Assembly (NCBI GenBank): GCA_011525845.1
Contig: WYBP01000020.1
Coordinates: 186,001-250,000 of the forward strand
Length of the DNA stretch: 64,000 bases
Direction: 5' to 3'
From: Gemmatimonadaceae bacterium
GTDB lineage: Bacteria; Gemmatimonadota; Gemmatimonadetes; Gemmatimonadales; Gemmatimonadaceae
Part shown: positions 45,671 to 64,000 of the stretch, piece after piece
Position numbering within the stretch: the stretch's first letter is position 1
Layout: each line of letters starts with the position of its first letter
The notes under the pieces: generated by a model
The model's input: only the letters and a program-made list of their open reading frames with translations
Database searches by the model: none
Told to the model about the DNA's origin: nothing
Position numbers and translations under genes: made by a program

Positions 45671-45680
45671 GAAGAAGCGA

Positions 45681-45714: not shown

Positions 45715-45738
45715 CCTCGTTGCGTGGGGCCGTGGGGA

Positions 45739-47499: not shown

Positions 47500-49113
47500 T
47501 TGGCGTCCAGCGGCTCGAACGAGGCGTGGGGCAGTAGGATCGGATTGATCCTCGCGATGGCGGGGAATGCGGTGGGGCTCGGCAACTTCCTGCGCTTCCC
47601 GCGCCAGGCCGCCGCGAACGGCGGCGGCTCGTACATGATCACGTACTTCATCGCCCTGCTCCTCCTGGGCATCCCGCTCATGTGGATCGAGTGGGGGATC
47701 GGCCGCAACGGCGGCAAGTATCGCAAGGGGCACCTCCCCGGCATGCTCGCGGCGATCTGGAAGCATCCCGCCGCCAAGTACCTCGGCGTGGTGGGGATGA
47801 TCGTCCCGCTCTGCGTGATGATCTACTACACGTACATCGAGAGCTGGACCGCAGCCTTCGCCTGGTTCTCGCTGACGCAGGACTACTGGGGGCACACGAC
47901 CCAGGAAGGGATGATCGGGTACCTCCGCTCGTTCCAGGGCGTGCCGGTGGAGGGGATGACGCCCGTGCACTCGTCGTACACGCCCTACGCCTTCTTCGCG
48001 GGCACGCTCGCCCTGAACATCTGGGTGCTCTCCAAGGGGATCTCGGGCGGGATCGAGAAGCTGGCGAAGATCGGCATGCCGATCCTCTTCTTCCTCGCGA
48101 TCATCCTCGCGGTGGTGGTGCTCACCCTCCCGTCGCAGCCGGGGATCGGCACCACCCCCTGGCAGGGCCTCGAGTTCATCTACAACCCCGACTTCTCGCG
48201 ACTCGATGAGCCCAGCGTCTGGCTCGCCTCGGCCGGCCAGATCTTCTTCACGCTCTCGGTCGGCATGGGGTCGCTGGCGGCGTACGCGTCCTACCTCAAG
48301 AAGACGGACGACATCGCGCTGAGCGGCATCGCCACGGCCTCGACGAACGAGGCGGTCGAGGTGGTGCTCGGCGGGACCATCGCCATCCCGGCGGCGGTCA
48401 CCTTCTTCGGCGTCGCCGGCGCGATGGCGATCGCCCAAGGCGGCTCGTTCGACCTCGGTTTCGCGACCATGCCGGTGGTCTTCCAGCAGATCCCCGGCGG
48501 CCAGTTCCTCGGCGTCGCCTGGTTCAGCCTGCTCTTCTTCGCCGGCGTGACCTCGTCGGTGGCGATGCTCACGCCGATCGTCGCGTTCTTCCGCGAGGAG
48601 TTCGGGTTCAAGCGCGAGCACGTGGCGTGGACCCTCGGTGCCGTCTGCTTCGCGTTCGGGATGATGCACGTGCACTGGCTGCAGCACGGCTTCCTGGACG
48701 AGTGGGACTACTGGGCCGGGACCTTCGGGCTCGTGCTCGTCGCCGTGCTCGAGGTGATCGTGTTCGTCTGGATCTTCAAGCCCGAGAAGGCGTGGGCGGC
48801 GATCCACGAGGGGGCGGACATCACGATCTGGCCCGTCTTCAAGTTCATCATGACGTACGTGACGCCCGTGTACCTGCTCATCATCCTCGGCTGGTGGGGG
48901 TGGACGGACGCGATCCCGATCCTGCTCAACGAGAAGACCGCGGGAGGCGGCGTGGTGACGCCCGAGGCGGTGCCGTACATCACGCTCTCGCGCGCCGCGA
49001 TCCTCTTCATCGCGGTCACCTTCCTCGTGCTGATCCGCGCGGCGTGGAAGCGCAACAAGTACGATGACCGCCAGGGATTCGTGGAAGTCCCGCAGACCGG
49101 GGAGGCCGCCTGA
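47500..49113 (+). CDS. sodium-dependent NSS/SNF-family amino acid transporter (MetP-like)
   Basis: A 537-residue symporter with about 12 helices. The NSS first helix is RIGLILAMAGNAVGLGNFLRFP (core AGNAVGLGNFLRFP, sodium and substrate site); others are AANGGGSYMITYFIALLLLGIP (core NGGGSYMITY) and GQIFFTLSVGMGSLAAYASYL (core FFTLSVGMGSLAAYAS). It starts with TTG 47500, seven bases after TGGAG. It is translationally coupled to a 33-residue membrane peptide resembling MetS, which supports a methionine/alanine importer. Confidence 0.92.
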   Translation: MASSGSNEAWGSRIGLILAMAGNAVGLGNFLRFPRQAAANGGGSYMITYFIALLLLGIPLMWIEWGIGRNGGKYRKGHLPGMLAAIWKHPAAKYLGVVGMIVPLCVMIYYTYIESWTAAFAWFSLTQDYWGHTTQEGMIGYLRSFQGVPVEGMTPVHSSYTPYAFFAGTLALNIWVLSKGISGGIEKLAKIGMPILFFLAIILAVVVLTLPSQPGIGTTPWQGLEFIYNPDFSRLDEPSVWLASAGQIFFTLSVGMGSLAAYASYLKKTDDIALSGIATASTNEAVEVVLGGTIAIPAAVTFFGVAGAMAIAQGGSFDLGFATMPVVFQQIPGGQFLGVAWFSLLFFAGVTSSVAMLTPIVAFFREEFGFKREHVAWTLGAVCFAFGMMHVHWLQHGFLDEWDYWAGTFGLVLVAVLEVIVFVWIFKPEKAWAAIHEGADITIWPVFKFIMTYVTPVYLLIILGWWGWTDAIPILLNEKTAGGGVVTPEAVPYITLSRAAILFIAVTFLVLIRAAWKRNKYDDRQGFVEVPQTGEAA

Positions 49114-49214
49114 TGTCCGGACCATCGATCATCTTCATGGCGCTCAGCTGGGCGGGCGTGCTCGGACTCGTCGGGTGGGCGTATTACCGGCTCCTCACCG
49201 ACAAGAAGAAGTAG
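49113..49214 (+). CDS. metS: MetS-like small subunit of the NSS transporter (33 aa)
   Basis: A 33-residue single-helix protein beginning MSGPSIIFMALSWAGVLGLV, ending YRLLTDKKK. The ATG overlaps the transporter stop (TGATG), so it is translated right after it. Corynebacterial MetP needs a comparable tiny partner, MetS, with one helix and a basic C-terminal tail. Size, topology, position and tail all match, although a peptide this short cannot be assigned by similarity alone. Confidence 0.78.
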   Translation: MSGPSIIFMALSWAGVLGLVGWAYYRLLTDKKK

Positions 49215-49264
49215 CGGTGCGGCACCTCGCGTCACGGCGCGAGGCCTGAGGGACAGGGAACGAG

Positions 49265-49300
49265 AACGGGGAGGGCGCCGATCGAGGCGCCCTCCCCGTT
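49265..49300. terminator. bidirectional hairpin after metS
   Basis: A perfect 15-bp stem (AACGGGGAGGGCGCC at 49265-49279, complement at 49286-49300) with a 6-base loop, between convergent stops at 49214 and 49321. It is flanked by AA and TT, giving a short U run on both sides. Confidence 0.75.
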
Positions 49301-49320
49301 CCGCATCCGTCGCGGAGCGC

Positions 49321-51471
49321 TCAGTCCATCGCGGGATCCGTCTTGAGCCAGTACCCGAACCAGTCGCGGAGCCGTCCGAGGCGGTCCACGAGGAGCCAGG
49401 GTTCCCCGGTCCGCGAGAGGTCGTGCGTGGAGCGCGGGTAGCGCACGAACTCCACGGGCGTGCCCTGCTTCTTCAGGGCGATGAACCACTGCTCCGCATC
49501 GGTCATCGGCGTGCGGTGGTCCTCCTCCGACTGCAGGATGAAGGTCGGCGTCCGCACGTTGCGCACGTACCGGATCGGCGAGAGCGAGTCGTACATCGCC
49601 GGATTGTCCCAGGGCTTGCCGAAGAACTCGAACTCGGTGAGCCCCTGCGCGTCGGAGGTGCCGTACCAGGACCACCAGTTCGAGATCATGCGGTCGGCCT
49701 GCGCCGCCTTGAACCGATGGGTCTTCGCGGTGATCCAGGCCGTCATCACGCCGCCGTAGGAGCCACCCGTGACGCCCATCCGCGTGGAATCCACGTCCGG
49801 TCGCGCGGCGGCGACGTCCACCGCCTTCATCAGGTCCTCATAGTCCTCGGCGAACCAGCGCCCGCGCGTGGAGAAGGTGAAGTCCGCCCCGTAGCCGCTC
49901 GAGCCGCGCGGGTTGGTGTAGAGCACCATGAACCCCGCGGCCGCGAGGTTCTGCGTCTCGTCGAACCACTGCTCGCCGTACTGGCTGTGCGGGCCGCCGT
50001 GCACGTAGAGCACGAGCGGGTAGCGCGTGCCGGCCGTGTAGCCGAAGGGCTTCATGAGCCACCCCTCGATCTCCAGCCCGCCGACGCTCGTGAAGGTCAG
50101 CCGCTCCGCATCCGACCACGCGACCTCGGCGTTGAGCTTGTCGTTGAACGACGTGAGCCGCCGCTCGCCGCTGCCGTCCACGCCGGCGACGTGCAGCTCG
50201 GTGGGCCTGTTCACGCTCGTGGCGACGAAGGCCACCTGCCGTCCCTGCGCGTCGAACGAGTAGCCGTTCATCTTGCGACGCCCGCCGAGCGCCTCCTTCA
50301 TCCGCCCGTCCCGCGCATTCACGAGGAAGAGCCCGCTCGAGCCGCCGATGTCCGCCCACATGGCGATGTCGCCCCCCGGCAGCCAGGCGATGCCGTTCGG
50401 CTCATAGCGCCAGGTGGGGGTGAGGTTCGTCGGCCGGCCACCAGCGACGTCGATGACCATCAGGCGCGCGTTCTTCGTGCGCGCCGGCTGGTCGATGAAG
50501 GCGATCCGCCGGCTGTCGGGGGACCAGGCCAGGTCTCCCTCGGAGCCGGGCAGCTCCGCGACCTTCCTCGGCGTCCCCCCGGCCACGGGGATGACGTAGA
50601 TGTCGGAGTCGTTCCGCTCCGCCTCGTCCCGGGCGCGGTCGTACGGCAGCAGCGCGATGGAGTCCGCGATCGCGCTCACCACCGAATCGGGCCGCAACGA
50701 GACGTCGGCGACGAAGGCGATCCACTTCCCGTCCGGCGACACGACCGGGTTGCGGTGCGAGTACGCCGTGCTCGTGAGCTGCACGCGCTTGGCGCCCGGG
50801 ACCTGCGTGAAGAGCTGCTGCGGTCGGATCACGCGGGCCTCACGAGGCCCGGGGATGAATCCCTGCCCGTTCGCCTTGTAGCGCATCTCGGTGATCTGGC
50901 GGCCGTCGAAGCGCGCCGGGTCCACCGGCTTGGTGATCGCGCCGAAGGGGGGACGCGCCATCGGCTGCATGCGCGCGTACGGGTCGGCCGGGCGAGCGGC
51001 GGCGGGGGTCGAGTCCGGCGTGACGGTGGACGCGAAGACGGCGAACTTCCCGTCCCGGGGCCAGGAGCCGCTCGGATAGTCGGTGAGCTGCATGGCCTCG
51101 CCCGAGGGCGCATCCATGCGGATGGCCCACACCGGCCCGCTCCCGCCCGTGCGCTGCGAGTTGAAGAACAGGTACTTGCCGTCCGGTGAGAAGCGCGGGG
51201 ACGAGCTCTCGGTGCTCGGACTCGTATACCGCACCGGCTCGCCGCCGGCCGTCGGCACCACCCAGACCTCCTGGTGCCGCTTGTTCTCGCTCTCCGCCAC
51301 CGTGGTGACGGTGAAGGCGACGAGTCGCCCGTCCGGGGACATCGCCGGCTGGGAGAGGGTCGTGAGGCGGTGCCAGTCGTTGGGCTGCATGGCGCGCTGC
51401 GCGTCCAGCACGGACGGCACGACGAGCAGGAGGGCGAGCGACGCCACGAGGCGCGTGAGGGGAGGATGCAT
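49321..51471 (-). CDS. secreted S9C-type prolyl oligopeptidase
   Basis: A 716-residue exported serine peptidase. The signal peptide is residues 1-24 (LVASLALLLVVPSVLDAQ). WD-like propeller repeats (SPDGRLVAF, SPDGKYLFF, SPDGKWIAF, SPDSRRIAF) cover residues 40-420. The hydrolase domain has YVHGGPHSQYG, TNPRGSSGYG, nucleophile GVTGGSYGGVM, acid SEEDHRTP and base RSTHDLSR. It probably cleaves short peptides or acylated residues in the periplasm. It is unrelated in detail to the larger S9 enzyme at 40.7-43.6 kb. Confidence 0.93.
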   Translation of the reverse strand: MHPPLTRLVASLALLLVVPSVLDAQRAMQPNDWHRLTTLSQPAMSPDGRLVAFTVTTVAESENKRHQEVWVVPTAGGEPVRYTSPSTESSSPRFSPDGKYLFFNSQRTGGSGPVWAIRMDAPSGEAMQLTDYPSGSWPRDGKFAVFASTVTPDSTPAAARPADPYARMQPMARPPFGAITKPVDPARFDGRQITEMRYKANGQGFIPGPREARVIRPQQLFTQVPGAKRVQLTSTAYSHRNPVVSPDGKWIAFVADVSLRPDSVVSAIADSIALLPYDRARDEAERNDSDIYVIPVAGGTPRKVAELPGSEGDLAWSPDSRRIAFIDQPARTKNARLMVIDVAGGRPTNLTPTWRYEPNGIAWLPGGDIAMWADIGGSSGLFLVNARDGRMKEALGGRRKMNGYSFDAQGRQVAFVATSVNRPTELHVAGVDGSGERRLTSFNDKLNAEVAWSDAERLTFTSVGGLEIEGWLMKPFGYTAGTRYPLVLYVHGGPHSQYGEQWFDETQNLAAAGFMVLYTNPRGSSGYGADFTFSTRGRWFAEDYEDLMKAVDVAAARPDVDSTRMGVTGGSYGGVMTAWITAKTHRFKAAQADRMISNWWSWYGTSDAQGLTEFEFFGKPWDNPAMYDSLSPIRYVRNVRTPTFILQSEEDHRTPMTDAEQWFIALKKQGTPVEFVRYPRSTHDLSRTGEPWLLVDRLGRLRDWFGYWLKTDPAMD

Positions 51472-51531
51472 CAGCTGGGATACTCCGGTTGAGGGCGATT
51501 CACTCGAAAGGTAGCGCGGCGGATCCCGCGC

Positions 51532-53151
51532 TCAGGCGCGCGCGGGAAAGTCGCGTCCGACGCGCGCGGCGGTCATGAGGCCGAGGGCGCCGAAGGTGAG
51601 CGTCCCGTTGCAGCAACTCGCCGTGACCATCGTCGGCGCGCCGGCGATGAAGAGGTTCTCATGATCGTGCGCACGTCCGTCGCGGTCCACCACGCTCGTG
51701 GCGCCATCGGTGCCCATGCGGCACCCACCGCCGGGATGCTCCTGCCCGATGTCCCCCGCCGCGCTGGCCGAGGAGACGATCGTCCCATCCCCGGCGCGCG
51801 CCATGCGCGCGAAGAGCTCGCGGATGGCCTGTTCCGTCGGCCCGCGCAACTCCACCGACTCCGGCGCGTCGCGGAAGGCGAGCCGCGGCATCGGGTCGCC
51901 CCACGCGTTCCGCACCGTCGGGTCGAGACGCAGCTCGCTCTCGCGGGCCGGGAGCACGTCGTAGTACGCGCGCACGCGGGCCACGCCGCGCCGCGCCCGC
52001 GAGCGCCACTCGGCGAGCATCGCATCCCCGAGGAGCACGCCTCCCGACGCGTCCTTGAATCGCGGCTCCTGCCCGAACGACGATTCCCATACGCGCAGGT
52101 CGTGCCGCATGTAGCGCGCCAGCGCTCCGGGGCGCATGAACTGCTTGGTCACGAGCGAGTGCTGCGCGTTCACGCCCGGGAAGAGCGGAAGCGGAAGCTG
52201 GATCTGTGCGGCCACGTTGCGATGGCCGCAGAGGTACTTCCCCACCAGCCCCGAGCGGTTGGCGACGCCGTCCGGGAAGCGCGCGTCGCTAGAGAGCAGC
52301 AGGAGGTGCGGGGTCCAGGTGAACCCGGCGGCGAGCACGTAGCTCCGCGCCCGGAACTCGACCGTCTCGCCGGGGCGCCGGGTCGAGTTCGCGCTCAGGT
52401 GGGTGATGCGCCCCGTGCGCGCGTCCGCGTGGATGCGCCGCACGAGCGTCTCCGTCTCCAGCCGCACGCGGCCGGCGCGCACGAGCGCGTCGAAGGAGAA
52501 GTCGGGGGAGTACTTGGCGCCGGTCGGGCAGATCGGATAGCAGGTGTCGCAGCGCTGGCACGAGGCGCGCCCCGCGTAGGGGACGGAGTTCTTCGCGCTC
52601 GGCTGGCCCCACATCGTGACCCCGGCCTTCCCCGCCCACTCGCGGAGCAGCTGCAGGTTCTGCGAGAGCGGGAGCGCGGGCATCGGGAAGGGCTGGCCGC
52701 GCGGGTCCATCTCCGGCGGCCCCTGTTCCCCCGCGATCCCCATCCGTTCCTCCGCCTCCTGGTAGAAGGGGTCGAGCTCCTCGTAGCTGATGGGCCAGTC
52801 GTCGCCCACGCCGTAGAGGGTGCGCAGCCGGAAATCCTCGGGGGAGAAGCGCGGGGTGACACCGCCCCAGTGCATCGCGAGCCCGCCCACGTTCATGCTC
52901 GGCGAGAACCCGTACGCGGTGCCGAGGGCGTTCTGGTCGTCCACGTGGTCGTTCGGCCAGGGCGTCTCGCCATACTGCTGCCAGCGCGCACGGCGCAGCG
53001 CGCGCTCGCGGAGCGGCGTGGTGTGCCCTCCCGCCTCCACCACGGTGATCGTCACGTCGCGCTCGGCGGCGAGCTTCTCGGCCATCAGCGCGGCGGTGAT
53101 CCCCGAGCCGACGATGCAGATGTCGCTCTCGATCTCGCGTGCCGCGCTCAT
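51532..53151 (-). CDS. GMC oxidoreductase with Fe-S type cysteine cluster (gluconate/FAD-glucose dehydrogenase-like large subunit)
   Basis: A 539-residue FAD enzyme. The FAD-binding GxGxxA motif is CIVGSGITAALMAEKLA (residues 12-28), and the C-terminal GMC region has GGGCRMGTDGATSVVDRDGR and the active-site-proximal NGTLTFGALGLM. Mid-protein CQRCDTCYPICPTGAKY has four closely spaced cysteines, like those holding the 3Fe-4S cluster in bacterial FAD-glucose dehydrogenase. It has no export signal of its own. It overlaps the Tat-signal subunit gene by four bases (ATGA), so it should be exported by hitch-hiking. Confidence 0.85.
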   Translation of the reverse strand: MSAAREIESDICIVGSGITAALMAEKLAAERDVTITVVEAGGHTTPLRERALRRARWQQYGETPWPNDHVDDQNALGTAYGFSPSMNVGGLAMHWGGVTPRFSPEDFRLRTLYGVGDDWPISYEELDPFYQEAEERMGIAGEQGPPEMDPRGQPFPMPALPLSQNLQLLREWAGKAGVTMWGQPSAKNSVPYAGRASCQRCDTCYPICPTGAKYSPDFSFDALVRAGRVRLETETLVRRIHADARTGRITHLSANSTRRPGETVEFRARSYVLAAGFTWTPHLLLLSSDARFPDGVANRSGLVGKYLCGHRNVAAQIQLPLPLFPGVNAQHSLVTKQFMRPGALARYMRHDLRVWESSFGQEPRFKDASGGVLLGDAMLAEWRSRARRGVARVRAYYDVLPARESELRLDPTVRNAWGDPMPRLAFRDAPESVELRGPTEQAIRELFARMARAGDGTIVSSASAAGDIGQEHPGGGCRMGTDGATSVVDRDGRAHDHENLFIAGAPTMVTASCCNGTLTFGALGLMTAARVGRDFPARA

Positions 53152-53783
53152 GGAGAATCTCCGGGCGCCAGCGGGAGCGGAGGCCGCGTCACCTCGGCGA
53201 GCACGCGGCAGTTCCCTGCCCCGATCCTCGCCTCGTAGGCGAGGTCGATGGCCGCGCTCGTCGCGGCCCAGTGCGCCATCAGGGCGAGCGCGACGTGCGG
53301 CGCTGTGATGGGGTTCGCCGGCAGCCGGTTGCCCGGGAGGCGCGAGAGTTGAGCGGTGAGGAGCGCGCGCCGGCGCGCGAGGTCCAACGCGGCGATCCCC
53401 GTGCGATGCTTCGCGCGCGACAGGAGGTCGAGCGCGGCGAGCTGCGCGTTCCATCCGGGGGCGGGATCCGCGGGCGTATAGGTGATCTCGGCATCGCCGT
53501 AGCCATGCATCTCCTCGCTCACCGGCCGGTAGTCCCCGATCCATGCCAGGAACGCGGCGACGGCGGCCGAGCGAGCGGGCGCGCCGATCGACTCGGGGAG
53601 GACGGCCTCGCCGACCGCCATCGCGAGTGCCGGATCCAGCGTGGTCCGCTGCGCCGCTGACGCATCGGGAGCGACGCGCGGGGCTGCAGCACCCGCCGAG
53701 CCGGTCGCGCCGGCCGTGCCTGCGGCCGCGGCCGCTGCGCCGAGTGCGGCGCGCTTGATGAAGCTCCGACGGTCAGGGGCCAT
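53148..53783 (-). CDS. Tat-exported small subunit of GMC dehydrogenase (gluconate 2-dehydrogenase subunit 3-like)
   Basis: A 211-residue hitch-hiker subunit. The Tat signal is at the N terminus: DRRSFIKRAALGAAAAAAG. The rest is helical, with the subunit-3 pattern (AVGEAVLPESIG, AAFLAWIGDY, LSRAKHRTGIAALDLARRRAL ...). In gluconate and FAD-glucose dehydrogenases this subunit is needed for folding and export of the flavoprotein. Its start is 97 bases from the divergent amidohydrolase-PQQ gene. The third, cytochrome subunit is missing here. Confidence 0.82.
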   Translation of the reverse strand: MAPDRRSFIKRAALGAAAAAAGTAGATGSAGAAAPRVAPDASAAQRTTLDPALAMAVGEAVLPESIGAPARSAAVAAFLAWIGDYRPVSEEMHGYGDAEITYTPADPAPGWNAQLAALDLLSRAKHRTGIAALDLARRRALLTAQLSRLPGNRLPANPITAPHVALALMAHWAATSAAIDLAYEARIGAGNCRVLAEVTRPPLPLAPGDSP

Positions 53784-53879
53784 GGGGGGATTCTACGCCC
53801 GCACCGGGAGAGTGGCGAGCGCTGGCCGTGGCGCGCGGCGGCGGCCACATTCCCGCCCGTCCGTCCCACCGAGGCCACG

Positions 53880-56800
53880 ATGCCGCATCGCCGCACCCGC
53901 CGACCGCACCCGCGCACGATCCGCGGCCGCGCCCTCCTGCTCGCCGGCGCGCTCGCCACCGTGTCCGCCGCCCACGCCACGAGCGAACTCCCCCGCGAGG
54001 ACGCGATGGCGCTCGCACGCACCGCGACGCAGCCCGGCTCCCGCGTGACGATCCGCGCCGGAACGCTCCTGGACGGCCGCGGCGGCGCGCAGCGCGACGT
54101 GGTCGTCACGGTCGAGGGGTCGCGCATCGTGGCTGTCGCGCCCTGGCGCGCCGGTGGCCCTGTCACGTGGGACCTCTCCGCGATGACGCTGATGCCGGGC
54201 CTGATTGACACCCACGTGCACATCGATGCGCACTTCGGCGCGGACGGCCGCGCCTCGAACCGGGGAGAGACGGCGGCCGAGCGGATGATCGCCGCCGCGG
54301 CGAACGCGCAGCGCACGCTCCTGGCGGGCTTCACCACGGTGCAGAGCCTCGGGTCGCCGCAGGACGTCGAGCTCCGCCGGCACATCGCCGCCGGCACCTA
54401 CGCGGGGCCGCGACTGATCACCTCGGCCGGGCAGTTCTCCGACACGTCGCGCACTCCGGACGAGATCCGGCAGTGGGTGCGCGAGACCAGGGCGCGTGGC
54501 GCGGACGTGATCAAGATCTTCGCGTCCCGCAGCATCCGGGACGGCGGCGGCCAGACGCTGACCGACCTGCAGATCGCGGCGGCGTGCGGCGAGGCGCGCG
54601 CACAGGGCGTGCGCTCCTGGGTGCACGCGCACGCCGCCTCCGCCATCCGTGCGGCCGCGATGGCGGGGTGCACGGGCGTGACGCATGGCACGCGCGCCAC
54701 GTCCGCGGAGCTCGCGCTGATGGCCGAGCGCGGCACCTACTTCGAGCCGAACATCGGGCTCGTGATCCAGAACTACCTCGAGAACAAGGCGCGCTTCCTC
54801 GGCATCGGCAACTACACGGAGGAGGGGTTCCGGTTCATGGAGGAGATCGTGCCGGTGAACCGCACGCTCTTCCGCGAGGCGATCCGGACGCCGGGGCTCA
54901 AGGTGGTGATGGGGACCGACGCCGTGGCCGGCGGCCATGGGCAGAACGCGCGGGAGATCATCTTCCGCGTGCGGGAGGCGGGGCAGCCCGCGGGCGACGC
55001 GATCATCGCCGCCACGTCATTGGCGGCCGAGGCACTCGGCATCGGCGACAGCGTGGGCACCATCGCCGTGGGCCACGTGGCCGACCTCGTCGCGGTGGAG
55101 GGCGACCCGCTCGCGGACATCACCGCCCTGCAGCGCATCGGCTTCGTGATGGCGCGCGGCGAGCCCGTGAGGGCGCCGCCCGGCGAGCGGCCATCCGGTG
55201 CCGCGGCAGGCGAGGCGGCAGGCGCCGCCTCGCTGCGGAACGACTGGCCCACCTACGGGGGCGACGCGGGCGGCCTCAAGTACTCGAGCGCCGCGGAAGT
55301 CGACCGCACGAACGTCCACCGGCTCGAGGTCGCGTTCAGCTGGGAGGCGAACGAGCGCCCGATCCCGGCCGGTCCGGACCAGAAGCCCGCGCGCCCCGGG
55401 CTCTTCCAGGCCACCCCACTCGCGATCGGCGACACGCTCTTCTTCCCCACGCCCTACAACCGCGTGATCGCGCTCGACGCCGCGACGGGGCGCGAGCTCT
55501 GGGCGTACGACCCGCAGGTGTGGAAGACCTACGGCCAGCCCAGCAACGGCACTGGCTTCGTGCATCGCGGCGTGGCCACGTGGACCGACGGCACCTCGCG
55601 CCGGATCTTCCTCAACTCGCGCTGGCGTCTGATCGCGCTGGACGCGTCCACGGGGCGGCCGATCGCGGGGTTCGGCAGCGGCGGGGAGATCGACCTCACC
55701 ACCGGACTCTCGCGCCCCGTGCGCCGCGAGCACTACACGAACACCTCACCGCCCGTCGTCTGGGGCGACCTCGTGATCGTCGGCAACGGCGTGGGCGACC
55801 GGCTCATGTACCGCGGCGACCCGCCCGGCGACGTGCAGGCGTTCGACGTGCGCACGGGACGCCGCGTCTGGCGCTTCAAGACGGTGCCCGAGCCCGGCGA
55901 GTTCGGGAACGAGACCTGGGGGGACAGCTCGTGGGCGTTCAAGGGGCACACGAACGTCTGGGCTCCCTTCACCGTGGACAGCGCGCGCGGCCTCGTCTAC
56001 CTGCCGGTCGGCACGCCGAGCGACGACTGGTACGGCGGTGAACGCCCGGGCGCGAACCTCTTCGCGGAGTCGCTGGTCTGCCTCGACGCGCGCACGGGTC
56101 GGCGCGTCTGGCACTTCCAGGTCGCGCACCACGGCCTCTGGGATTACGACCTCCCTGCGCCGCCGAACCTCCTCACGGTGCAGCACGAGGGGCGCGCGAC
56201 GGACATCGTGGTCGCGCCCACCAAGCAGGGGTTCCTCTTCGCCTTCGAGCGCGCGACGGGGCGTCCGCTCTGGCCGATCGAGGAGCGCGCGGTGCCCGCG
56301 AGCGACGTCCCCGGCGAGCGCGCGTGGCCCACGCAGCCCTTCCCCACGCGCCCGGCCCCCTTCTCCGCGCAGGGCTTCACGCGCGACGACGTGACCTCGT
56401 TCACGCCCGCGCTCCGGCAGGCCGCACTCGACGAGATCGCCACCTACCGCACGGGACCGCTCTACACGCCCCCCTCGCTCGAGGGCACGGTGACGATGCC
56501 GGGGGTGATCGGCGGGGCGGGCTGGGGCGGTGCCGCGGTGGATCCGGCGACCGGCTGGCTCTTCGTGAAGGCGTCGAACTCCCCCGCCCTCTTCACGCTC
56601 CGCAAGCACGAGCAGAAGAGCGACACGATCGACACTCCCTACCTCGTCGACCTCCCGCGCTCCACGCTCGGCGTCTCCCAGCGGGACAACGCCGAGGGCG
56701 CCGTGCGCGCCTCCGCCCGGCTGCCGATCAACAAGCCGCCGTACGGCACGCTCACGGCCGTCGACATGAACACCGGCGAGACCAGGTGGACGGTGCCGCT

Positions 56801-57110
56801 CGGTGACACCCCCGAGGTGCGCGACCATCCGGCGCTTCGCGGCGCCGTGCTCCCCGAGCGCCTCGGCGTCGCGGGTTCACCGGGAGCGCTCGTCACCGGC
56901 GGCGGCCTCGTGTTCGTCTCCGGCGGCGGGCGCGTGCTCCACGCGATCGACACGCGGAGCGGAGTCACGCTCTGGGAGCATGACGTGGGCCAGGTGATCT
57001 ACGCGAACCCGATGACCTACCGCACGCGAGATGGGCGCCAGTTCATCGCCGTCGCGACGGGCGGGGGCGCCACGTCGCGCCTCGTGGTGTTCAGCCTGCC
57101 GCGCCGCTGA
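53880..57110 (+). CDS. fusion: exported amidohydrolase + PQQ-dependent (quinoprotein) dehydrogenase
   Basis: A single 1076-residue chain. Residues 1-33 are a basic signal peptide (RALLLAGALATVSAAHA). Residues about 54-432 are an imidazolonepropionase-like amidohydrolase with ligands H112/H114 (DTHVHID), K212 (VIKIFAS), H249/H251, H269 (THGT) and D347 (MGTDAVAGG). A linker rich in Pro, Ala and Gly (432-451) leads to an eight-bladed quinoprotein domain (about 452-1076): NDWPTYGGDAGGLKYS, repeated W-motifs (ALDAATGRELWAYDP, CLDARTGRRVWHFQ, AIDTRSGVTLWEHD) and HHGLWDYDLPAPPNL, as in PQQ glucose dehydrogenases. No CXXCH is present. The reading frame is uninterrupted. Confidence 0.88.
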   Translation: MPHRRTRRPHPRTIRGRALLLAGALATVSAAHATSELPREDAMALARTATQPGSRVTIRAGTLLDGRGGAQRDVVVTVEGSRIVAVAPWRAGGPVTWDLSAMTLMPGLIDTHVHIDAHFGADGRASNRGETAAERMIAAAANAQRTLLAGFTTVQSLGSPQDVELRRHIAAGTYAGPRLITSAGQFSDTSRTPDEIRQWVRETRARGADVIKIFASRSIRDGGGQTLTDLQIAAACGEARAQGVRSWVHAHAASAIRAAAMAGCTGVTHGTRATSAELALMAERGTYFEPNIGLVIQNYLENKARFLGIGNYTEEGFRFMEEIVPVNRTLFREAIRTPGLKVVMGTDAVAGGHGQNAREIIFRVREAGQPAGDAIIAATSLAAEALGIGDSVGTIAVGHVADLVAVEGDPLADITALQRIGFVMARGEPVRAPPGERPSGAAAGEAAGAASLRNDWPTYGGDAGGLKYSSAAEVDRTNVHRLEVAFSWEANERPIPAGPDQKPARPGLFQATPLAIGDTLFFPTPYNRVIALDAATGRELWAYDPQVWKTYGQPSNGTGFVHRGVATWTDGTSRRIFLNSRWRLIALDASTGRPIAGFGSGGEIDLTTGLSRPVRREHYTNTSPPVVWGDLVIVGNGVGDRLMYRGDPPGDVQAFDVRTGRRVWRFKTVPEPGEFGNETWGDSSWAFKGHTNVWAPFTVDSARGLVYLPVGTPSDDWYGGERPGANLFAESLVCLDARTGRRVWHFQVAHHGLWDYDLPAPPNLLTVQHEGRATDIVVAPTKQGFLFAFERATGRPLWPIEERAVPASDVPGERAWPTQPFPTRPAPFSAQGFTRDDVTSFTPALRQAALDEIATYRTGPLYTPPSLEGTVTMPGVIGGAGWGGAAVDPATGWLFVKASNSPALFTLRKHEQKSDTIDTPYLVDLPRSTLGVSQRDNAEGAVRASARLPINKPPYGTLTAVDMNTGETRWTVPLGDTPEVRDHPALRGAVLPERLGVAGSPGALVTGGGLVFVSGGGRVLHAIDTRSGVTLWEHDVGQVIYANPMTYRTRDGRQFIAVATGGGATSRLVVFSLPRR

Positions 57111-58278
57111 CCATCCGCCGCAGCACGCGTCCCGCGCGCACCGCCGCCTCGGTGATGCGCGCGGGGCTCGTGATGAAGGAGATCCGGAAGAACCCCTTCC
57201 CCCCCGCGCCGAGCGCGGCGCCCGCGAGCACGATCACGCCCTCCTCCTCCATCAGGCGTTCGTGGAAGTCGATCGACTGCACGCCCTCGGGGAGCGGCAC
57301 CCAGAGGTACATCGACGCCTTCGGCACCTCGGGCACGCTGAAGCCGTTGGCGCGGAACGCCGCGACGGCCGCGTCGCGCCGCTCGCGGAAGACGGCCACG
57401 TTCCCCGGCACCCAGCTCTCCCAGGACTCGAGCGCCGCGATCCCCGCCTTCTGCACCGCCATGAACTGCCCCGTGTCCACGAAGCTCTTGGTCTTGGCGA
57501 GGGCGGCCACGATCCCGGCGTTCCCGGCGGCCCACCCGCAGCGCCACCCGGTCATGTTGTACGTCTTGGAGAGCGAGTGGAACTCGATCGCCACGTCGCG
57601 CGCGCCCGGCACGTCGAAGATGCTGGGCGCTACGTAGCCGTCGAAGGTCAACTCCGAGTACGCATTGTCATAGACGAGTACGATCGATCGCTCGCGGCAG
57701 GTCCTGACCACCCGCTCGAGGTAGTCGAGGGGCGCGACCGCCGCCGTCGGATTGTTCGGGTAGTTCAGGTAGAGGAGCCGGGTGCGCGCCATCACGCTCT
57801 CGGGGATCTCGTCGAGGTCCACGAGGAAGTCGGTCCGCGGCGTGATCGGATAGAGGTGGGGCTCCGCATCGCTGAGCAGCGTGCCGCCGAGGTAGGAGAG
57901 GTACCCCGGGTCCGGGATGATCGCGACGTCCCCCTGCTGGAGGTACGCGAGGGCGAGGTGGGCGATCCCCTCCTTGCTCCCGATGAGCGGGACGGTCTCC
58001 TTGAGCGGGTCGAACCGGTGCCCGAAGCGCTTCTCCATCCACGCGGTCGTCGCGTCGCGGAAGGCGGGGAGTCCGAGGCCGAATCCGTAGCGGCTCATCG
58101 CGGGTTCGCGCGCGGCGGCGGCGAGCGCCTCCACGGCGGCCGGCGGCGGCGCGAGGTCGGCATCGCCTGCGCCGAGGTCGATCACGTCGACCCCGCGGGC
58201 GATCAGGTCACGCTTCTTCTGGGGGATGGTCGCCAGCAGGTAGACCGGCAGCGAGTCGAATCGGCGAGTGGTGCGCAC
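57091..58278 (-). CDS. class I/II PLP aminotransferase (LL-diaminopimelate aminotransferase-like)
   Basis: Fold-type I transaminase of 395 aa. The PLP lysine is in FHSLSKTYNMTGWRCGW; supporting motifs are VDVIDLGAGDADL, YLNYPNNPTAAVAP and LVYDNAYSELTFDG. The N-terminal block (ATIPQKKRDLIARGVDVIDLG, core KKRDLIARGVDVI) resembles DapL-type and related transaminases. Whether it makes LL-diaminopimelate or handles aromatic amino acids for the tyrosine route nearby is not decided. It overlaps the convergent quinoprotein gene by 20 bases. Confidence 0.88.
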   Translation of the reverse strand: MRTTRRFDSLPVYLLATIPQKKRDLIARGVDVIDLGAGDADLAPPPAAVEALAAAAREPAMSRYGFGLGLPAFRDATTAWMEKRFGHRFDPLKETVPLIGSKEGIAHLALAYLQQGDVAIIPDPGYLSYLGGTLLSDAEPHLYPITPRTDFLVDLDEIPESVMARTRLLYLNYPNNPTAAVAPLDYLERVVRTCRERSIVLVYDNAYSELTFDGYVAPSIFDVPGARDVAIEFHSLSKTYNMTGWRCGWAAGNAGIVAALAKTKSFVDTGQFMAVQKAGIAALESWESWVPGNVAVFRERRDAAVAAFRANGFSVPEVPKASMYLWVPLPEGVQSIDFHERLMEEEGVIVLAGAALGAGGKGFFRISFITSPARITEAAVRAGRVLRRMVSGAAG

Positions 58279-58338
58279 GTCGGGGAATGTGGGGGGCGGA
58301 TGATGACGGTGCCGCGCCCCGAAAACTACTCGACGCGT

Positions 58339-59094
58339 TCAGGCCGGTGGGCGCTTGCCGGGCGTGGGGGCCGGCGGCGGCACCTTCGTCGCACTGTCCA
58401 CCGCCTTGATCTCGAAGCGGAACATCTGCTCGGCGAGCTGGCGCACCGCCGTCGCGCCGCGCCGGGCCGGGTAGAAGCGCATCTTCGGGAGCGCCGCGCG
58501 CACCGCCTCCCAGAACTCCTCATGGCTCGCGTCGAGCCGCTGCGCCGAGGCCAGGTCGATCATGCCGTTCGTGTCGACGACGAAGCGCACCGCCGCGAAC
58601 CCCGAGATCCCCTTGCGCATCAGCTCCGGCGGGTAGGCCGGCGCGGCGCTCTCGGGATGCCGTGAGGCGGCGGAGTCCACGTCGATCTCCATGTAGGCAT
58701 CGGCGAAGACCGATGGCGCCGCATCCTCCATCGCGGACGGCGCGACGGCCGCCGCGAGCGAGGCGCGCTCCCGATCGAGCGAATCCTGGATGCCGCGGCG
58801 CCGCGCGAGCTCGGCCAGCTGGGCGAGGCGCGCCTCCTCGGCCTCGTCCATGGTCTCGCCGCTCCCCACGGACGGGTCCCGATACCCGAGCGTCTGCATC
58901 GGCTGCTCCGGGCTCGCGCTGGGGGGGACGAGGAAGCGGAGCCCCTCGGGGAGCGTCTCCTCGATGGGTTCCGACCGCACGACGCCGGACGTCCCGAGGT
59001 TGTACGCGACCACGATGGCGAGGTGTAGCGCGACGCTCAGCACCAGGCCGGCGGTGCCGCCCACGGTCCCGGAGGTCGTGCTGATGAACTTCAT
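58339..59094 (-). CDS. TonB-family energy transducer (third TonB-like protein)
   Basis: A 251-residue periplasmic protein with one N-terminal helix (GLVLSVALHLAIVVAYNLG, residues 16-34), a charged helical middle (EEARLAQLAELARRRGIQDSLDRERASL, core AQLAELARRRG) and a C-terminal TonB domain with PAYPPELMRKGISGFAAVRFVVD and ALPKMRFYPARR. The YPPELM motif is the classic TonB-C signature. No ExbB/ExbD lie nearby, so it may share the set at 17.7-19.4 kb. It is 60 bases upstream of the aminotransferase gene. Confidence 0.87.
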   Translation of the reverse strand: MKFISTTSGTVGGTAGLVLSVALHLAIVVAYNLGTSGVVRSEPIEETLPEGLRFLVPPSASPEQPMQTLGYRDPSVGSGETMDEAEEARLAQLAELARRRGIQDSLDRERASLAAAVAPSAMEDAAPSVFADAYMEIDVDSAASRHPESAAPAYPPELMRKGISGFAAVRFVVDTNGMIDLASAQRLDASHEEFWEAVRAALPKMRFYPARRGATAVRQLAEQMFRFEIKAVDSATKVPPPAPTPGKRPPA

Positions 59095-59205
59095 GCGCGC
59101 GCCCCGGGCGCGCCGCGGTGTCGATCGCGCGATCGCATGGGCAACACCTCCCCTTGTGTTACCCCGTGGAACGCGGAATTGCGCACGCGGGGCCTGGGCA
59201 CTCCC

Positions 59206-59844
59206 TCAGGGCGTCCGCGTCGTGGCGACGGTCGGCCGCTCGAGCGCGAACATGTTCGCCGCCGTCACGTGCGCCCACTCCTGCCGTCCCATGCGGGCCG
59301 CCGGGTTCACCTTCGCCGTGTCGGGCAGCCCGTCGTCCCCGAGGACCGCGGTGTCCACGTGGAGCACCAGCACCTCGCCGATGACCCAGTTGGAGTGCTG
59401 CGGTCCGCTGCCGTGCGTCACGATCTCGAACACCTTGCACTCGAGCTGCGCCGGGCTCTCCAGCACGCGCGGCGGGCGCACGACGGTCGATGCGATCCGC
59501 GTGAACCCCGTCATGTCGAACTCGTCGACGTCGGGCGCGAAGGGCGCCGACGCCGCGTTCACCCGTTCCGCCATCGCGCGCGAGACGATGTTGATCACGA
59601 ACTCCCCGGTCGCCCGCACGTTCCGGAGGGTGTCCTTGGGATTCCCCTCCCGGTCCGCGACGGGGCAGAACGCCACCGACTGCGGATTCCCACCGCCCAT
59701 CGCGAAGAAGCTGAATGGCGCCAGGTTCCCCGCACCCTCGGCACTCAGCGAGCTCACGAGCGCGATCGGCCGTGGCGCGATGAGCGGCGTGAGCCAGGCG
59801 TGGCGCTCGCGGGGGGCGAGGTCGGCGAGGCGGAGGAGCCTCAC
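59206..59844 (-). CDS. flavin reductase-like domain protein (FMN-binding)
   Basis: A 212-residue protein of the DIM6/NTAB flavin-reductase family. Typical segments are LIAPRPIALVSSLSAEGAGNLAPFSFF (core APRPIALVSS), NPKDTLRNVRATGEFVINI (core KDTLRNVRATGEFVINI) and HSNWVIGEVLVLHVD. It may supply reduced flavin to a monooxygenase or have its own oxidoreductase role. I chose GTG 59844 because the frame upstream is only heptamer repeat. It lies 45 bases after the homogentisate dioxygenase stop, so it is likely in the tyrosine operon. Confidence 0.85.
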   Translation of the reverse strand: MRLLRLADLAPRERHAWLTPLIAPRPIALVSSLSAEGAGNLAPFSFFAMGGGNPQSVAFCPVADREGNPKDTLRNVRATGEFVINIVSRAMAERVNAASAPFAPDVDEFDMTGFTRIASTVVRPPRVLESPAQLECKVFEIVTHGSGPQHSNWVIGEVLVLHVDTAVLGDDGLPDTAKVNPAARMGRQEWAHVTAANMFALERPTVATTRTP

Positions 59845-59849
59845 TCCAC

Positions 59850-59891
59850 CCACCTCTGACCTTTGACCTCCCACCTCACACCTGCCACCTC
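59850..59891. repeat. tandem heptamer repeat (consensus NNACCTN)
   Basis: ACCT recurs exactly every seven bases (59852, 59859, 59866, 59873, 59880, 59887), six copies. It spans the end of the homogentisate dioxygenase gene and the gap before the flavin-reductase gene. It resembles in period and purine bias the array at 45642-45670. Confidence 0.8.
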
Positions 59892-61071
59892 AAGAAGTCG
59901 GCGGCGAGAACCCGCCCCCGCCCTCGACCCAGCTGTACTGGTACTTCGGGTCCTCGTAGGGCAGGATCGCCTTCGCCACCTTGAGCGGGCGGAAGGAATC
60001 CATCATCACGGCCAGCTCGTTCGTGTACTTCTGCCCGATGCTCGCCTCGGCGCGCCCCGGATGGGGGCCGTGCGGGATGCCGTCGGGATGGTGCGTGATC
60101 GACCCGTACTCGATCCCCTTCCGGCTCATGAACTCGCTCGAGGCGTAGAAGAGCACCTCGTCGGAGTCCACGTTGCTGTGGTTGTAGGGCGCGGGGATCG
60201 CCTCGGGATGGAAGTCGTACGGCCGCGGGCAGAAGGAGCAGATGACGAACCCGTCCCCCTGGAAGGTCTGGTGCACCGGGGGCGGCTGGTGCACGCGCCC
60301 CACGATCGGCTCGAAGTCGTGGATGTTGAACGCCCAGGGATAGAACATCCCGTCCCAGCCGACGACGTCGAGCGGGTGGTGGTCGATGACGATCTCGTTG
60401 AAGCCGTCGTACTGCTTCACGATGATCGGGAACTCCCCCTTCTCGTCGAAGGTGCGGAGCTCGCGCGGGATCCGGAAATCCCGCTCGCTGTAGGGCGCGC
60501 CCTCGAGCACCTGGCCATAGTGGTTCAGGTAGCGCGACGGGGGGCGCACGTAGCCGCGGCTCTCCATCACCAGGAGCTTCGCCGGCTTGGTGAAGCGGTA
60601 GCGGTGCAGGATGCCGCGGTGGATCACCAGGTAGTCGCCGGGGATGAACGGGAGGTCGCCATACTGCGTCTCGAGCGTCCCCTCCCCCTCGGCGACATAC
60701 ACCACCTCGTCGCCCTGGGCGTTGCGGTAGAAGTGCTCGTCCTCCTTGTCCGGCGCCACGTAGAGCATCGCGATGTCGCTGTTGAAGAGCATCGGGACGC
60801 GGTCGAGCGTGGGGCTGCCCCCGCGCGCGATGGGCGCGGTGCGGAAGTGCCGGTGCTTGAGCGTGGCGTCGGGATCGGCCTCGTACTTCGTCTCGCGCAC
60901 GCGACGCGCCGAGGTCACCATCGTCGGCGGGTGGATGTGGTAGAGGAGCGCGGCCGGCCCCGTGAAGCCCTCGATGCCGACGAGGTGCTCCGAGTAGAGG
61001 CCGCCGTCCGGCCGGCGGAAGACGATGTGGCGCTTGCGCGGGATCTTCCCGAGCGTGTGGTACACCGGCAT
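59890..61071 (-). CDS. hmgA: homogentisate 1,2-dioxygenase
   Basis: Ring-cleaving Fe(II) dioxygenase of 393 aa, turning homogentisate into maleylacetoacetate. The cupin fold and family blocks are clear: GDEVVYVAEGEGTLET, YLVIHRGILHRYRF, WDGMFYPWAFNIHDFEP (core WAFNIHDFEP), PAPYNHSNVDSDEV (His298 with an acidic ligand about residue 304-305) and HGPHPGR (His334). It overlaps the HPPD stop by one base (TGATG) and is translated after it, so the two steps are coupled. Confidence 0.93.
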   Translation of the reverse strand: MPVYHTLGKIPRKRHIVFRRPDGGLYSEHLVGIEGFTGPAALLYHIHPPTMVTSARRVRETKYEADPDATLKHRHFRTAPIARGGSPTLDRVPMLFNSDIAMLYVAPDKEDEHFYRNAQGDEVVYVAEGEGTLETQYGDLPFIPGDYLVIHRGILHRYRFTKPAKLLVMESRGYVRPPSRYLNHYGQVLEGAPYSERDFRIPRELRTFDEKGEFPIIVKQYDGFNEIVIDHHPLDVVGWDGMFYPWAFNIHDFEPIVGRVHQPPPVHQTFQGDGFVICSFCPRPYDFHPEAIPAPYNHSNVDSDEVLFYASSEFMSRKGIEYGSITHHPDGIPHGPHPGRAEASIGQKYTNELAVMMDSFRPLKVAKAILPYEDPKYQYSWVEGGGGFSPPTS

Positions 61072-62195
61072 CAGAGGTTCCCCCGCAGGGCCTGCTCGCG
61101 CTCGATGCTCTCGAAGAGCGCCTTGAAGTTCCCGGCACCGAAGCTCTTCGCGCCCTTGCGCTGGATGATCTCGAAGAAGAGGGTGGGCCGGTCCTGCACC
61201 GGCTTGGTGAAGATCTGCAGCAGATACCCCTCGTCGTCCCGGTCCACGAGGATCCCGAGCTCGGCGAGCGGGGCGATCTCCTCGTCGATCTTCCCGACGC
61301 GGTCGAGCACCGTCTCGTAGTAGGTGCGCGGGATGCTGAGGAACTCCACGCCGCGCGACCGGAGCTCGCGCACGGTCGTGATGATGTCGTCGGTGGCCAC
61401 GGCGATGTGCTGCACCCCGGGGCCCCGGTAGAAGTCGAGGTACTCCTCGATCTGCGACTTCTTCTTCCCCTTGGCCGGCTCGTTGATCGGGAACTTGATC
61501 CGGCCGTTCCCGTTCGACATCACCTTCGACATCAGCGCCGAGTACTCGGTGGAGATGGTCTTGTCGTCGAAGGAGAGGAGGTTGAAGAAGCCGAGGACGT
61601 TCGAGTAGAACTCGACCCAGTGGTTCATCCGGCCGAGCTCGACGTTGCCGACGCAGTGGTCGACGTACTTGAGGCCGACGCCCTTCGGCGCGAAGGGCGA
61701 CGTCGCGGGGACGAAGCCGGGGAGGAAGAGCCCCCGGTAGTTCCGCCGCTCCACGATCGAGTGGATCGTGTCGCCATAGGTGCGGATGCCGGCCATCACC
61801 ACCTCGCCCTGCTCGTCCTTGAGCACCGTGGGCTCCTGCACCGAGACGGCGCCGCGCTCCACGGCCTTCCGGTGGGCATCGCGCGCGTCGTCCACCCAGA
61901 ACGCCATGTCGCGCACGCCGTCGCCATGCTTCGCGACGTGCGCGGCGATCTCCCCCTCGGGCCCGAGCGCCGTGGTGAGCACGAGCCGGATCTTCCCCTG
62001 CTCCAGCAGGTAGCTCGCGCGGTCGCGGACGCCCGTCTCCGGGCCCCGGTAGGCCTTGAGCGTGAAGCCGAAGGCCGCGCGATAGAAGAGCATGGACTGC
62101 TTGGCGTTGCCGACCCAGAACTCGATGTAGTCGGTGCCGTTGATCGGGAAGGTGTCGACGTGGGTGGCGTCGGCCGGCGCGGTGCTGGTGGCCAT
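61071..62195 (-). CDS. hpd: 4-hydroxyphenylpyruvate dioxygenase
   Basis: Fe(II) dioxygenase of 374 aa converting 4-hydroxyphenylpyruvate to homogentisate. It has the two-fold vicinal-oxygen-chelate architecture; iron ligands are His180 (YVDHCVGNV), His263 (VQHIAVATDD) and Glu342 (FFEIIQR). The C-terminal helix FGAGNFKALFESIEREQ (core GAGNFKALFESIE) that gates the active site is present. ATG 62195 is fixed by family length; the longer frame runs back into the synthetase gene in a wrong frame. Confidence 0.95.
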   Translation of the reverse strand: MATSTAPADATHVDTFPINGTDYIEFWVGNAKQSMLFYRAAFGFTLKAYRGPETGVRDRASYLLEQGKIRLVLTTALGPEGEIAAHVAKHGDGVRDMAFWVDDARDAHRKAVERGAVSVQEPTVLKDEQGEVVMAGIRTYGDTIHSIVERRNYRGLFLPGFVPATSPFAPKGVGLKYVDHCVGNVELGRMNHWVEFYSNVLGFFNLLSFDDKTISTEYSALMSKVMSNGNGRIKFPINEPAKGKKKSQIEEYLDFYRGPGVQHIAVATDDIITTVRELRSRGVEFLSIPRTYYETVLDRVGKIDEEIAPLAELGILVDRDDEGYLLQIFTKPVQDRPTLFFEIIQRKGAKSFGAGNFKALFESIEREQALRGNL

Positions 62196-62218
62196 GACAA
62201 TGTCCTCGGTGATGATGC

Positions 62219-62239
62219 GCGCGGGAGACCGTCCCGCGC
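62219..62239 (-). promoter_or_regulatory. hairpin in the hpd leader
   Basis: GCGCGGGA (62219-62226) pairs with TCCCGCGC (62232-62239), 5-base loop, between the -10-like element and the hpd start 24 bases away. It could be a leader regulatory structure or a weak terminator for the synthetase gene; there is no T run. Confidence 0.35.
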
Positions 62240-62247
62240 TCCCTTCC

Positions 62248-62253
62248 AATATA
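62248..62253 (-). promoter_or_regulatory. candidate -10 element for hpd-hmgA
   Basis: Minus strand TATATT, followed by GGAAGG, 53 bases before the hpd ATG and 22 bases past the synthetase stop. ATATTGGAAG also occurs before sodA. No clear -35 is visible. Confidence 0.4.
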
Positions 62254-62275
62254 CCGTGGCTTCCCCGCCGGGGGC

Positions 62276-64000
62276 CTACGGCCGCGCGTGCACCCGGCGG
62301 GCGAGCGCGCGGAACTCCTCGAGCGCTCCGGGATTCGCGAGGGCGTCGGTGTTGGCCACCTCCCGCCCGTGCAGCGCGTGCCGCACTGCGATCTCGGTGA
62401 CCTTGCCGCTCAGCGTGCGGGGGATGTCCCGCACCGCCTCGATCACCTTCGGCACGTGGTGCGGGCTCGCCGCGGTGCGCACCGCGCGCCGGATCCGGTC
62501 GCGCAGCGCGTCGTCCAGCGTCGCGCCATCGCGGAGGCGCACGAAGAGCGCGATCCGCACGTCCGCGTCGTCGGCGCCCTCGAGCCCCACGACGACGCTG
62601 TCCATCACCTCGGGAAAGGTCTCGACCACCCGGTAGATCTCCGCCGTCCCGATGCGCACCCCTCCGGGGTTCAGCGTCGCGTCGCTCCGCCCGCGGATGA
62701 CCAGGCCGTCGTGCGCGGTGATCTCGGCCCAGTCGCCGTGGCGCCACGCGCCCGGGAAGTGCTCGAAGTACGCCGCGCGGTATCGTGCGCCGTCCGGGTC
62801 GTCCCAGAACGCCACCGGCATCGACGGGAAGGGACGGGTGCAGACGAGCTCCCCCGCCCGGCCCCGCACCGGCCGCCCCTCGTCGTCCCAGACGTCCACC
62901 GCCATCCCCAGCCCGCGCGACTGGAGCTCCCCGCGCCAGACGGGCAGGAGCGGATTCCCGAGCGCGAAGCAGGAGAGGAGGTCGGTGCCACCGGAGATGC
63001 TCGCGAGGTGCACGCCGGGCCGCACGTCGCGGTAGACGTAGTCGTAGCTGTGCTCCGCGAGCGGGCTCCCGGTGGAGAGGATCGCCCGCATCCCCTGGAG
63101 GTCGTGCGTGCGTGCCGGCGCGAGCTGCAGCTTCTCCGACATCGCGAGGTACTTCGCACTGGTCCCGAAGACGGCGACGCGCTCCTCGGCCGCGAGGTCC
63201 CAGAGGATGCCGGGGTTGGCGTCCGGCAGCGGCGCGCCGTCGTAGAGCACGATCGTCGCCTCCGACGCGAGCGCACTCACGAGCCAGTTCCACATCATCC
63301 ACCCACAGGTGGTGAAGTAGAAGAGGCGGTCCCCCGGCCGGAGGTCGGTGTGGAGGCGGTGCTCCTTGAGGTGCTGCAGGAGCGTCCCGCCGGCGCCGTG
63401 CACCATGCACTTGGGGAGGCCGGTGGTGCCGGAGCTGTACATCACGTAGAGCGGATGGTCGAACCGTAGCCGCTCGAACGTGAGCGGGGCCTCCGCCCCC
63501 CGCGCCGCGAACGCCGACCACTCCACGGCGTCCGGCAGGCGCGCGGCGATGGCGGAGCGGGCGGCCGCATCGCCAAGGAAGGGCACCATGATGACCTGCC
63601 GCACGCTCGGGAGCGCGGCCGCGATCTCGCGCACGCGCTCCACGAGGTCGATGCGCTTGCCGTCGTACTGGTAGCCGTCGGCGGCGACCAGCACCGTGGG
63701 CGTGACCTGGCCGAACCGATCCAGCACGCCGGCATGGCCGAAGTCCGGGGAGCAGGAGGACCAGATCGCGCCGATCGCCGAGGCCGCGAGCGCGGCGACC
63801 ACCGCCTCCGGGATGTTCGGCAGGAAGCCGACCACGCGGTCCCCCGGCGCGATCCCGAGCGAGCGCAGCGCGCCCGCGACCTTCCGCACCTCGTCCGCGA
63901 GGTCCGCGAAGCCGATCTCGCGCCGTCGCCCCCGTTCGTCACGCGCGATGATCGCGGGCGCCGCGTCGCGCCGGCGGAGCATGTTCTCCGCGAAGTTGAG
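62276..64000 (-). CDS. aacS: acetoacetyl-CoA synthetase (partial, N terminus beyond right edge)
   Basis: ATP-dependent ligase activating acetoacetate to acetoacetyl-CoA; 574 codons are visible and the frame is open to the right edge, where it reads LNFAENMLRRR, so about 80-90 residues are missing. Adenylate-forming motifs are YVMYSSGTTGLPKCMVHG (P-loop), FYFTTCGWMMWNW (typical of acetoacetyl-CoA synthetases), HGDWAEI and RTLSGKVTEIAV with the catalytic lysine. Acetoacetate is an end product of the homogentisate route encoded next to it, so this gene completes carbon recovery from tyrosine. Confidence 0.92.
   Translation of the reverse strand, partial: LNFAENMLRRRDAAPAIIARDERGRRREIGFADLADEVRKVAGALRSLGIAPGDRVVGFLPNIPEAVVAALAASAIGAIWSSCSPDFGHAGVLDRFGQVTPTVLVAADGYQYDGKRIDLVERVREIAAALPSVRQVIMVPFLGDAAARSAIAARLPDAVEWSAFAARGAEAPLTFERLRFDHPLYVMYSSGTTGLPKCMVHGAGGTLLQHLKEHRLHTDLRPGDRLFYFTTCGWMMWNWLVSALASEATIVLYDGAPLPDANPGILWDLAAEERVAVFGTSAKYLAMSEKLQLAPARTHDLQGMRAILSTGSPLAEHSYDYVYRDVRPGVHLASISGGTDLLSCFALGNPLLPVWRGELQSRGLGMAVDVWDDEGRPVRGRAGELVCTRPFPSMPVAFWDDPDGARYRAAYFEHFPGAWRHGDWAEITAHDGLVIRGRSDATLNPGGVRIGTAEIYRVVETFPEVMDSVVVGLEGADDADVRIALFVRLRDGATLDDALRDRIRRAVRTAASPHHVPKVIEAVRDIPRTLSGKVTEIAVRHALHGREVANTDALANPGALEEFRALARRVHARP

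Follow-up and report, generated by a model that had tools for sequence, protein, structure and literature searches.

Amidohydrolases related to the L-Arg/Lys carboxypeptidase Cc2672 (structure 3mtw) and to the ADH3/ochratoxinase-type enzymes (8ihq, 4c5y) remove C-terminal amino acids or cleave N-acyl amino acids, and the ochratoxinase of A. niger is a homo-octamer (PMC11342369). Described quinoproteins include the quinohemoprotein alcohol dehydrogenases (1kv9, 1yiq), which have a cytochrome domain with a CxxCH motif, and the membrane quinoprotein glucose dehydrogenase of E. coli (gcd; TIGR03074). Periplasmic direct-oxidation sets combine a PQQ glucose dehydrogenase with an FAD gluconate 2-dehydrogenase. 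In the stretch of Gemmatimonadaceae DNA analysed here (64,000 nt, hereafter the window), one gene encodes an amidohydrolase followed by a PQQ-type dehydrogenase (Table 1), that is, two known enzyme families in a new domain combination and not a new kind of enzyme. The initial annotation knew of no enzyme with this pairing, and none was found in the literature and solved structures searched.

Layout of the fusion protein and its two active sites

The gene consists of one uninterrupted frame, as had been reported, and the junction, placed initially around codon 440 near position 55200, was located at residues 431-453 (about nt 55170-55238). The N-terminus has the features of a putative signal peptide, read from the sequence as a basic n-region, a ALLLAGALATVSA core and an AHA cleavage motif, so that the export originally proposed is likely. 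The AlphaFold model (mean pLDDT 84.3, pTM 0.65) contains two well-ordered domains, with residues 1-52 and 431-453 predicted to be disordered (pLDDT <50 over 431-453); since the pTM is moderate, the placement of the domains is not to be read from it. A disordered linker is therefore present, but the Pro/Ala/Gly composition attributed to it holds for the window only (APPGERPSGAAAGEAAGAASLRND), the linkers of the five other fusions described below being ~10 residues shorter and Arg/Gly-rich in the alignment.

Table 1. Location of the fusion gene, its parts and associated genes (window positions unless stated otherwise)
Feature	Location	Strand	Basis
Fusion gene, amidohydrolase + PQQ-type dehydrogenase (1076 aa; ATG at 53880, stop at 57110)	53880..57110	+	Open frame, Pfam, five full-length homologues
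Putative signal peptide, residues 1-33	53880..53978	+	Read from sequence
Amidohydrolase domain, residues 55-432	54042..55175	+	PF01979, 3mtw superposition, motifs
Interdomain linker, residues 433-453, variable length	55176..55238	+	pLDDT, alignment
PQQ-type propeller, residues 454-1076	55239..57107	+	PF01011, gcd alignment, 1yiq superposition
Small subunit like gluconate 2-dehydrogenase subunit 3	53148..53783	-	Divergent from fusion; homology to G021 copy
GMC flavin oxidoreductase, pyranose-oxidase-like	51532..53151	-	Overlaps small-subunit gene; PF05199, PF00732
PqqU-type PQQ importer	G000:C3:54793-56736 (locus L119, same genome, outside window)		31% identity, F/R/R signature

The amidohydrolase half is complete, with a PF01979 (Amidohydro_1) match at residues 103-429 that covers positions 1-344 of the 345 in the profile. 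All metal-ligand motifs claimed for it are kept, according to the motif reading and the 3mtw alignment (H112xH114, K212, HAH at 249-251, H269 and D347), and the modelled domain superposes on 3mtw with a Z of 51.7 and an rmsd of 1.9 Å (371/403 residues aligned, 37% identity). Judged by these motifs and by its predicted fold, the N-terminal half is a member of the Cc2672/ADH3 carboxypeptidase branch of the amidohydrolase superfamily, sharing the fold and all metal-ligand motifs with 3mtw, 8ihq and 4c5y; however, the solved members found match only the hydrolase half, whereas the window protein adds a quinoprotein. Several solved relatives contain eight chains per entry. Given the octameric state of related amidohydrolases, the hydrolase halves of the fusion may likewise assemble into an octameric core, with the propellers around it.

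The quinoprotein propeller is likewise complete (PF01011, residues 456-1056, profile positions 1-595 of 595, E 5.6e-194). Its model superposes on the quinohemoprotein alcohol dehydrogenase 1yiq with a Z of 37.0 and an rmsd of 2.8 over 505 aligned residues. The propeller fold is thus common to the fusion and to 1kv9 and 1yiq (Z about 37), but, unlike these enzymes, the fusion protein contains no CxxCH heme c motif anywhere. In the alignment with E. coli gcd, D755, K782, W694 and D640, all kept in 6/6 fusions, correspond to D466, K493, W404 and D354, which we take to be the catalytic base, the catalytic Lys, the stacking Trp and a Ca ligand, respectively. Furthermore, H562 is the equivalent of gcd H262, and S714 occupies the position of T424. 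The fusion differs from gcd in carrying a hydrolase, in lacking the N-terminal membrane anchor and in having R641 and K897 in place of N355 and N607, whose equivalents vary across the wider family and bear on specificity, not on membership. The best quinoprotein model match, to TIGR03074, lies below cut-off (433.6 bits vs 832.65) and begins at profile position 138, the amidohydrolase standing in place of the anchor. Apart from R641 and K897, both active sites are largely retained, as had been anticipated. Since the base and the cofactor-contacting positions are kept, the propeller can be argued to be an active dehydrogenase with altered specificity. Electrons would have to exit via some separate carrier, given that the protein has neither a CxxCH motif nor a membrane domain; neither a quinone-binding membrane domain in the fusion nor a partner cytochrome was identified. 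From such a carrier they could, hypothetically, enter the respiratory chain.

Spread and origin of the fusion

The same uninterrupted junction occurs in five other assemblies (G001, G010, G014, G109 and G132), which encode the full-length fusion at 74-79% identity, and it is therefore not an assembly error. The carriers, 6 of the 179 genomes of the family, represent three genera of one Gemmatimonadota family (the window, G001, G010 and G014 from one genus, G132 and G109 from one genus each), and four of the fusion-bearing assemblies are Gemmatimonadetes/Gemmatimonadaceae MAGs from different sample sets, at least two of which are lakes to judge by the isolate names in public records. No fusion was detected elsewhere among 288 genomes of the order or 395 genomes across the phylum at the thresholds used, in searches that listed very strong matches only and could miss more diverged fusions; such fusions could also escape the scan of genome contigs, which used exact peptide patterns. 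A candidate seventh fusion, in G331, was rejected because a TGA stop lies between the two genes. Estimates of dN/dS range from 0.07 to 0.42 in the amidohydrolase half and from 0.07 to 0.23 in the PQQ half (Nei-Gojobori; rough values, with dS often near 1), and identity among the six fusions is higher in the PQQ half (76-91%) than in the amidohydrolase half (70-88%). On these estimates both halves are under purifying selection. Because long spurious frames are numerous in this high-GC genome, chance read-through, an assembly error or a gene-calling artefact could be invoked, but with a junction common to six assemblies and purifying selection on either side of it we reject this explanation as vanishingly improbable. 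Nor are the two halves invariably separate genes that adjoin merely by chance, which the initial annotation had named as an outcome that would count against it: six homologues are fused, and the unfused ones are repeatedly neighbours (see below).

Trees of the two halves contain an identical six-member fusion clade with identical internal branching (the window; G001 with G109; G132 with G014 and G010), which means that the fusion formed once and was inherited as a unit. Genera fail to group inside this clade in both trees, suggesting either that the gene has moved between genera or that MAG binning or taxonomy is noisy. In its tree the PQQ half falls among quinoproteins that stand alone, for the most part from genus g20. 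The amidohydrolase half groups (100/100) with amidohydrolases most of which are joined to an FG-GAP/UnbV_ASPIC propeller, and apart from the operonic ones of Gemmatimonadaceae, so that the partner propeller differs between sister proteins. Moreover, since the fused amidohydrolase lies on a different branch from the unfused neighbours, the association of amidohydrolase and quinoprotein arose more than once. For the same reason, fusion in place of a Gemmatimonadaceae operonic pair is not favoured.

The FG-GAP/UnbV_ASPIC-type fusions of this amidohydrolase branch were seen in eight Gemmatimonadaceae genomes (L049:2061-4721 in G021:C54, recognised with Pfam, and L084-L087 and L089-L091, recognised by sequence reading). 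They represent the closest amidohydrolase lineage, and their propeller is likewise C-terminal, but it is of the FG-GAP type, whereas that of the window fusion is a quinoprotein propeller. One further protein, L088 (G157:C188), has a 59% identical amidohydrolase with a different, shorter C-terminal extension.

Gene neighbourhood, unfused homologues and PQQ supply

Genes for a GMC flavin oxidoreductase and a small subunit are divergently oriented beside the fusion in the window, G001, G010, G014 and G132; this pair was not found beside the fusion in G109. The small subunit of the window carries a twin-arginine signal (RRSFIKR) and has no Pfam match, but is ~44% identical to the G021 copy, which matches PF13618. 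The GMC protein scores below the cut-off of TIGR02462. A PQQ dehydrogenase adjoining a GMC dehydrogenase with a subunit-3-like partner presumably resembles the periplasmic direct-oxidation sets, from which the present arrangement differs in that it includes an amidohydrolase and that a cytochrome subunit could not be recognised.

Unfused homologues of both halves are adjacent, in several gene orders, in 14 other Gemmatimonadota (G021, G063, G067, G176, G177 at a contig end, G178, G179, G180, G182, G183, G184 and G199, plus G331 and G439 of family f2) and in two Acidobacteria, G458 and G459, where they form a divergent pair. GMC and subunit-3-like genes accompany the unfused pair before the amidohydrolase in G021, after the quinoprotein in G331 and G439, and a few kb off in G458. 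Elsewhere (G030, G157, G160, G162 and G163) a GMC gene adjoins the quinoprotein with no amidohydrolase within the stretch read, and in the vicinity of many quinoprotein orthologues both genes are missing. The partner distances in the 14 unfused pairs correlate (Mantel r 0.92, 0/2000 permutations), a value to which shared species history contributes. That the association is retained despite varied gene order argues for a functional link between the halves, and the sequence data provide strong evidence that the pairing is functional and not due to chance. In two acidobacterial loci (L168:2-7785 and L169:2997-8610) the quinoprotein of the divergent orthologue pair is followed by a TonB-dependent receptor; L168 also has GMC and small-subunit genes close by. 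This receptor was considered as a possible PqqU and rejected, as it is not PqqU-like.

PqqC is absent from twelve genomes tested by profile search, all six fusion hosts among them. The search is able to detect the gene in these organisms, since 44 of the 395 phylum genomes, 11 of them in the fusion family, score above cut-off; none of these 11 (0/11) is among the family genomes strongly matching the fusion protein, a suggestive count that ignores relatedness. PqqB exceeds its cut-off in G033, G074 and G150 but in none of the fusion hosts, and a scan for PqqE returned only weak radical-SAM matches, the same in all 14 control genomes. All six fusion hosts encode a full-length TonB-dependent transporter ~31% identical to E. 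coli PqqU, which keeps F99, R304 and R365 (and R536). The signature of PqqU consists of Y/F/W99, R304 and R365 of the E. coli protein, and Gemmatimonadetes have been reported to be rich in PqqU (PMC12124388). With neither PqqB nor PqqC detected and an importer bearing the PQQ-binding signature, the simplest reading is that fusion hosts probably scavenge PQQ. The importer is not exclusive to organisms that do not make PQQ, as several of the genomes that have PqqC encode a PqqU-like protein too. G180, which has a split amidohydrolase/PQQ operon, is not among the PqqC matches and shows no PqqU-like gene at E 1e-30.

Proposed function and alternatives

The explanation that we favour, with a probability of about 0.55, is that of an exported bifunctional enzyme which would couple amide hydrolysis to PQQ-dependent oxidation and act with the GMC pair on one class of compounds. 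That is, the gene product would leave the cytoplasm as a two-enzyme protein, whose N-terminal half, a metal-dependent amidohydrolase, would cleave an amide bond (of a C-terminal amino acid or an N-acyl group) and whose C-terminal half, a soluble PQQ dehydrogenase of the glucose/quinate type, would oxidise a hydroxyl group, using PQQ supplied through the PqqU-like outer-membrane transporter. The fusion, the GMC flavin dehydrogenase and its small subunit would then attack one compound class in which an amide bond occurs together with oxidisable hydroxyls. Hypothetically, the hydrolysis product could be handed directly to the dehydrogenase, as the initial annotation assumed. The many quinoprotein orthologues with neither partner gene nearby speak against the bifunctional reading, as they suggest that the quinoprotein can work alone. 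The replacement of gcd N355 and N607 and the missing GMC pair next to the G109 fusion also count against it.

Because FG-GAP propellers are fused to members of this amidohydrolase branch too, at the same end of the protein, the PQQ propeller could instead mainly serve to hold or target the amidohydrolase, its redox role being minor or lost as in an 'empty quinoprotein'. The failure to find PqqB and PqqC in fusion hosts and a weak match to TIGR04528 ('acido-empty-quinoprotein' group A; 224 bits, below its cut-off of 650) would fit such a protein. However, the positions of the catalytic Asp, Lys, Trp and His and of the Ca-ligand Asp are kept in 6/6 fusions, conservation is higher in the PQQ half, and the hosts encode a PqqU-type importer that bears the PQQ-binding signature, so that a mere attachment role seems unlikely. 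It is possible, though well short of even odds, that the fusion only ties two enzymes of the same pathway together for joint expression and export, with no direct passing of a shared substrate and with oxidation perhaps preceding hydrolysis. Split, reordered and divergent arrangements elsewhere, together with a flexible linker of unconserved length, would agree with this; nothing decisive stands against it, since it departs from the bifunctional enzyme favoured above only in the order of the steps and the tightness of coupling. Rather doubtful is a bolder version of the bifunctional enzyme, in which a protein with perhaps an octameric core ringed by propellers would release and at once oxidise an amide-linked compound outside the inner membrane with scavenged PQQ, as the heart of an undescribed amidohydrolase/PQQ/GMC degradation system in Gemmatimonadota and Acidobacteria.

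Fusions and repeated neighbourhoods are among the few sequence clues to the roles of orphan enzymes. Here they link an unassigned branch of the amidohydrolases, a large group of equally unassigned Gemmatimonadota and Acidobacteria quinoproteins and a GMC dehydrogenase into a unit of four genes whose substrate can be sought by experiment, and they point to specific enzymes as the likely users of scavenged PQQ in Gemmatimonadota. In genus g1 the fusion sits among S9 peptidase, amino-acid symporter, aminotransferase, HPPD-like and homogentisate-dioxygenase-like genes; this context names no substrate, as it is absent in G132 and G109. In the window it belongs to a block of peptide and tyrosine breakdown genes (44313-64000) that holds an amidohydrolase, a Na/alanine symporter, a sodium-dependent transporter, an S9 peptidase, an aminotransferase and homogentisate-dioxygenase-like and HPPD-like genes. 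A further amidohydrolase-quinoprotein pairing is seen at two loci, L042 (G014:C7) and L048 (G007:C310), where a different amidohydrolase paralogue lies beside or close to a quinoprotein into which a CxxCH segment is inserted.
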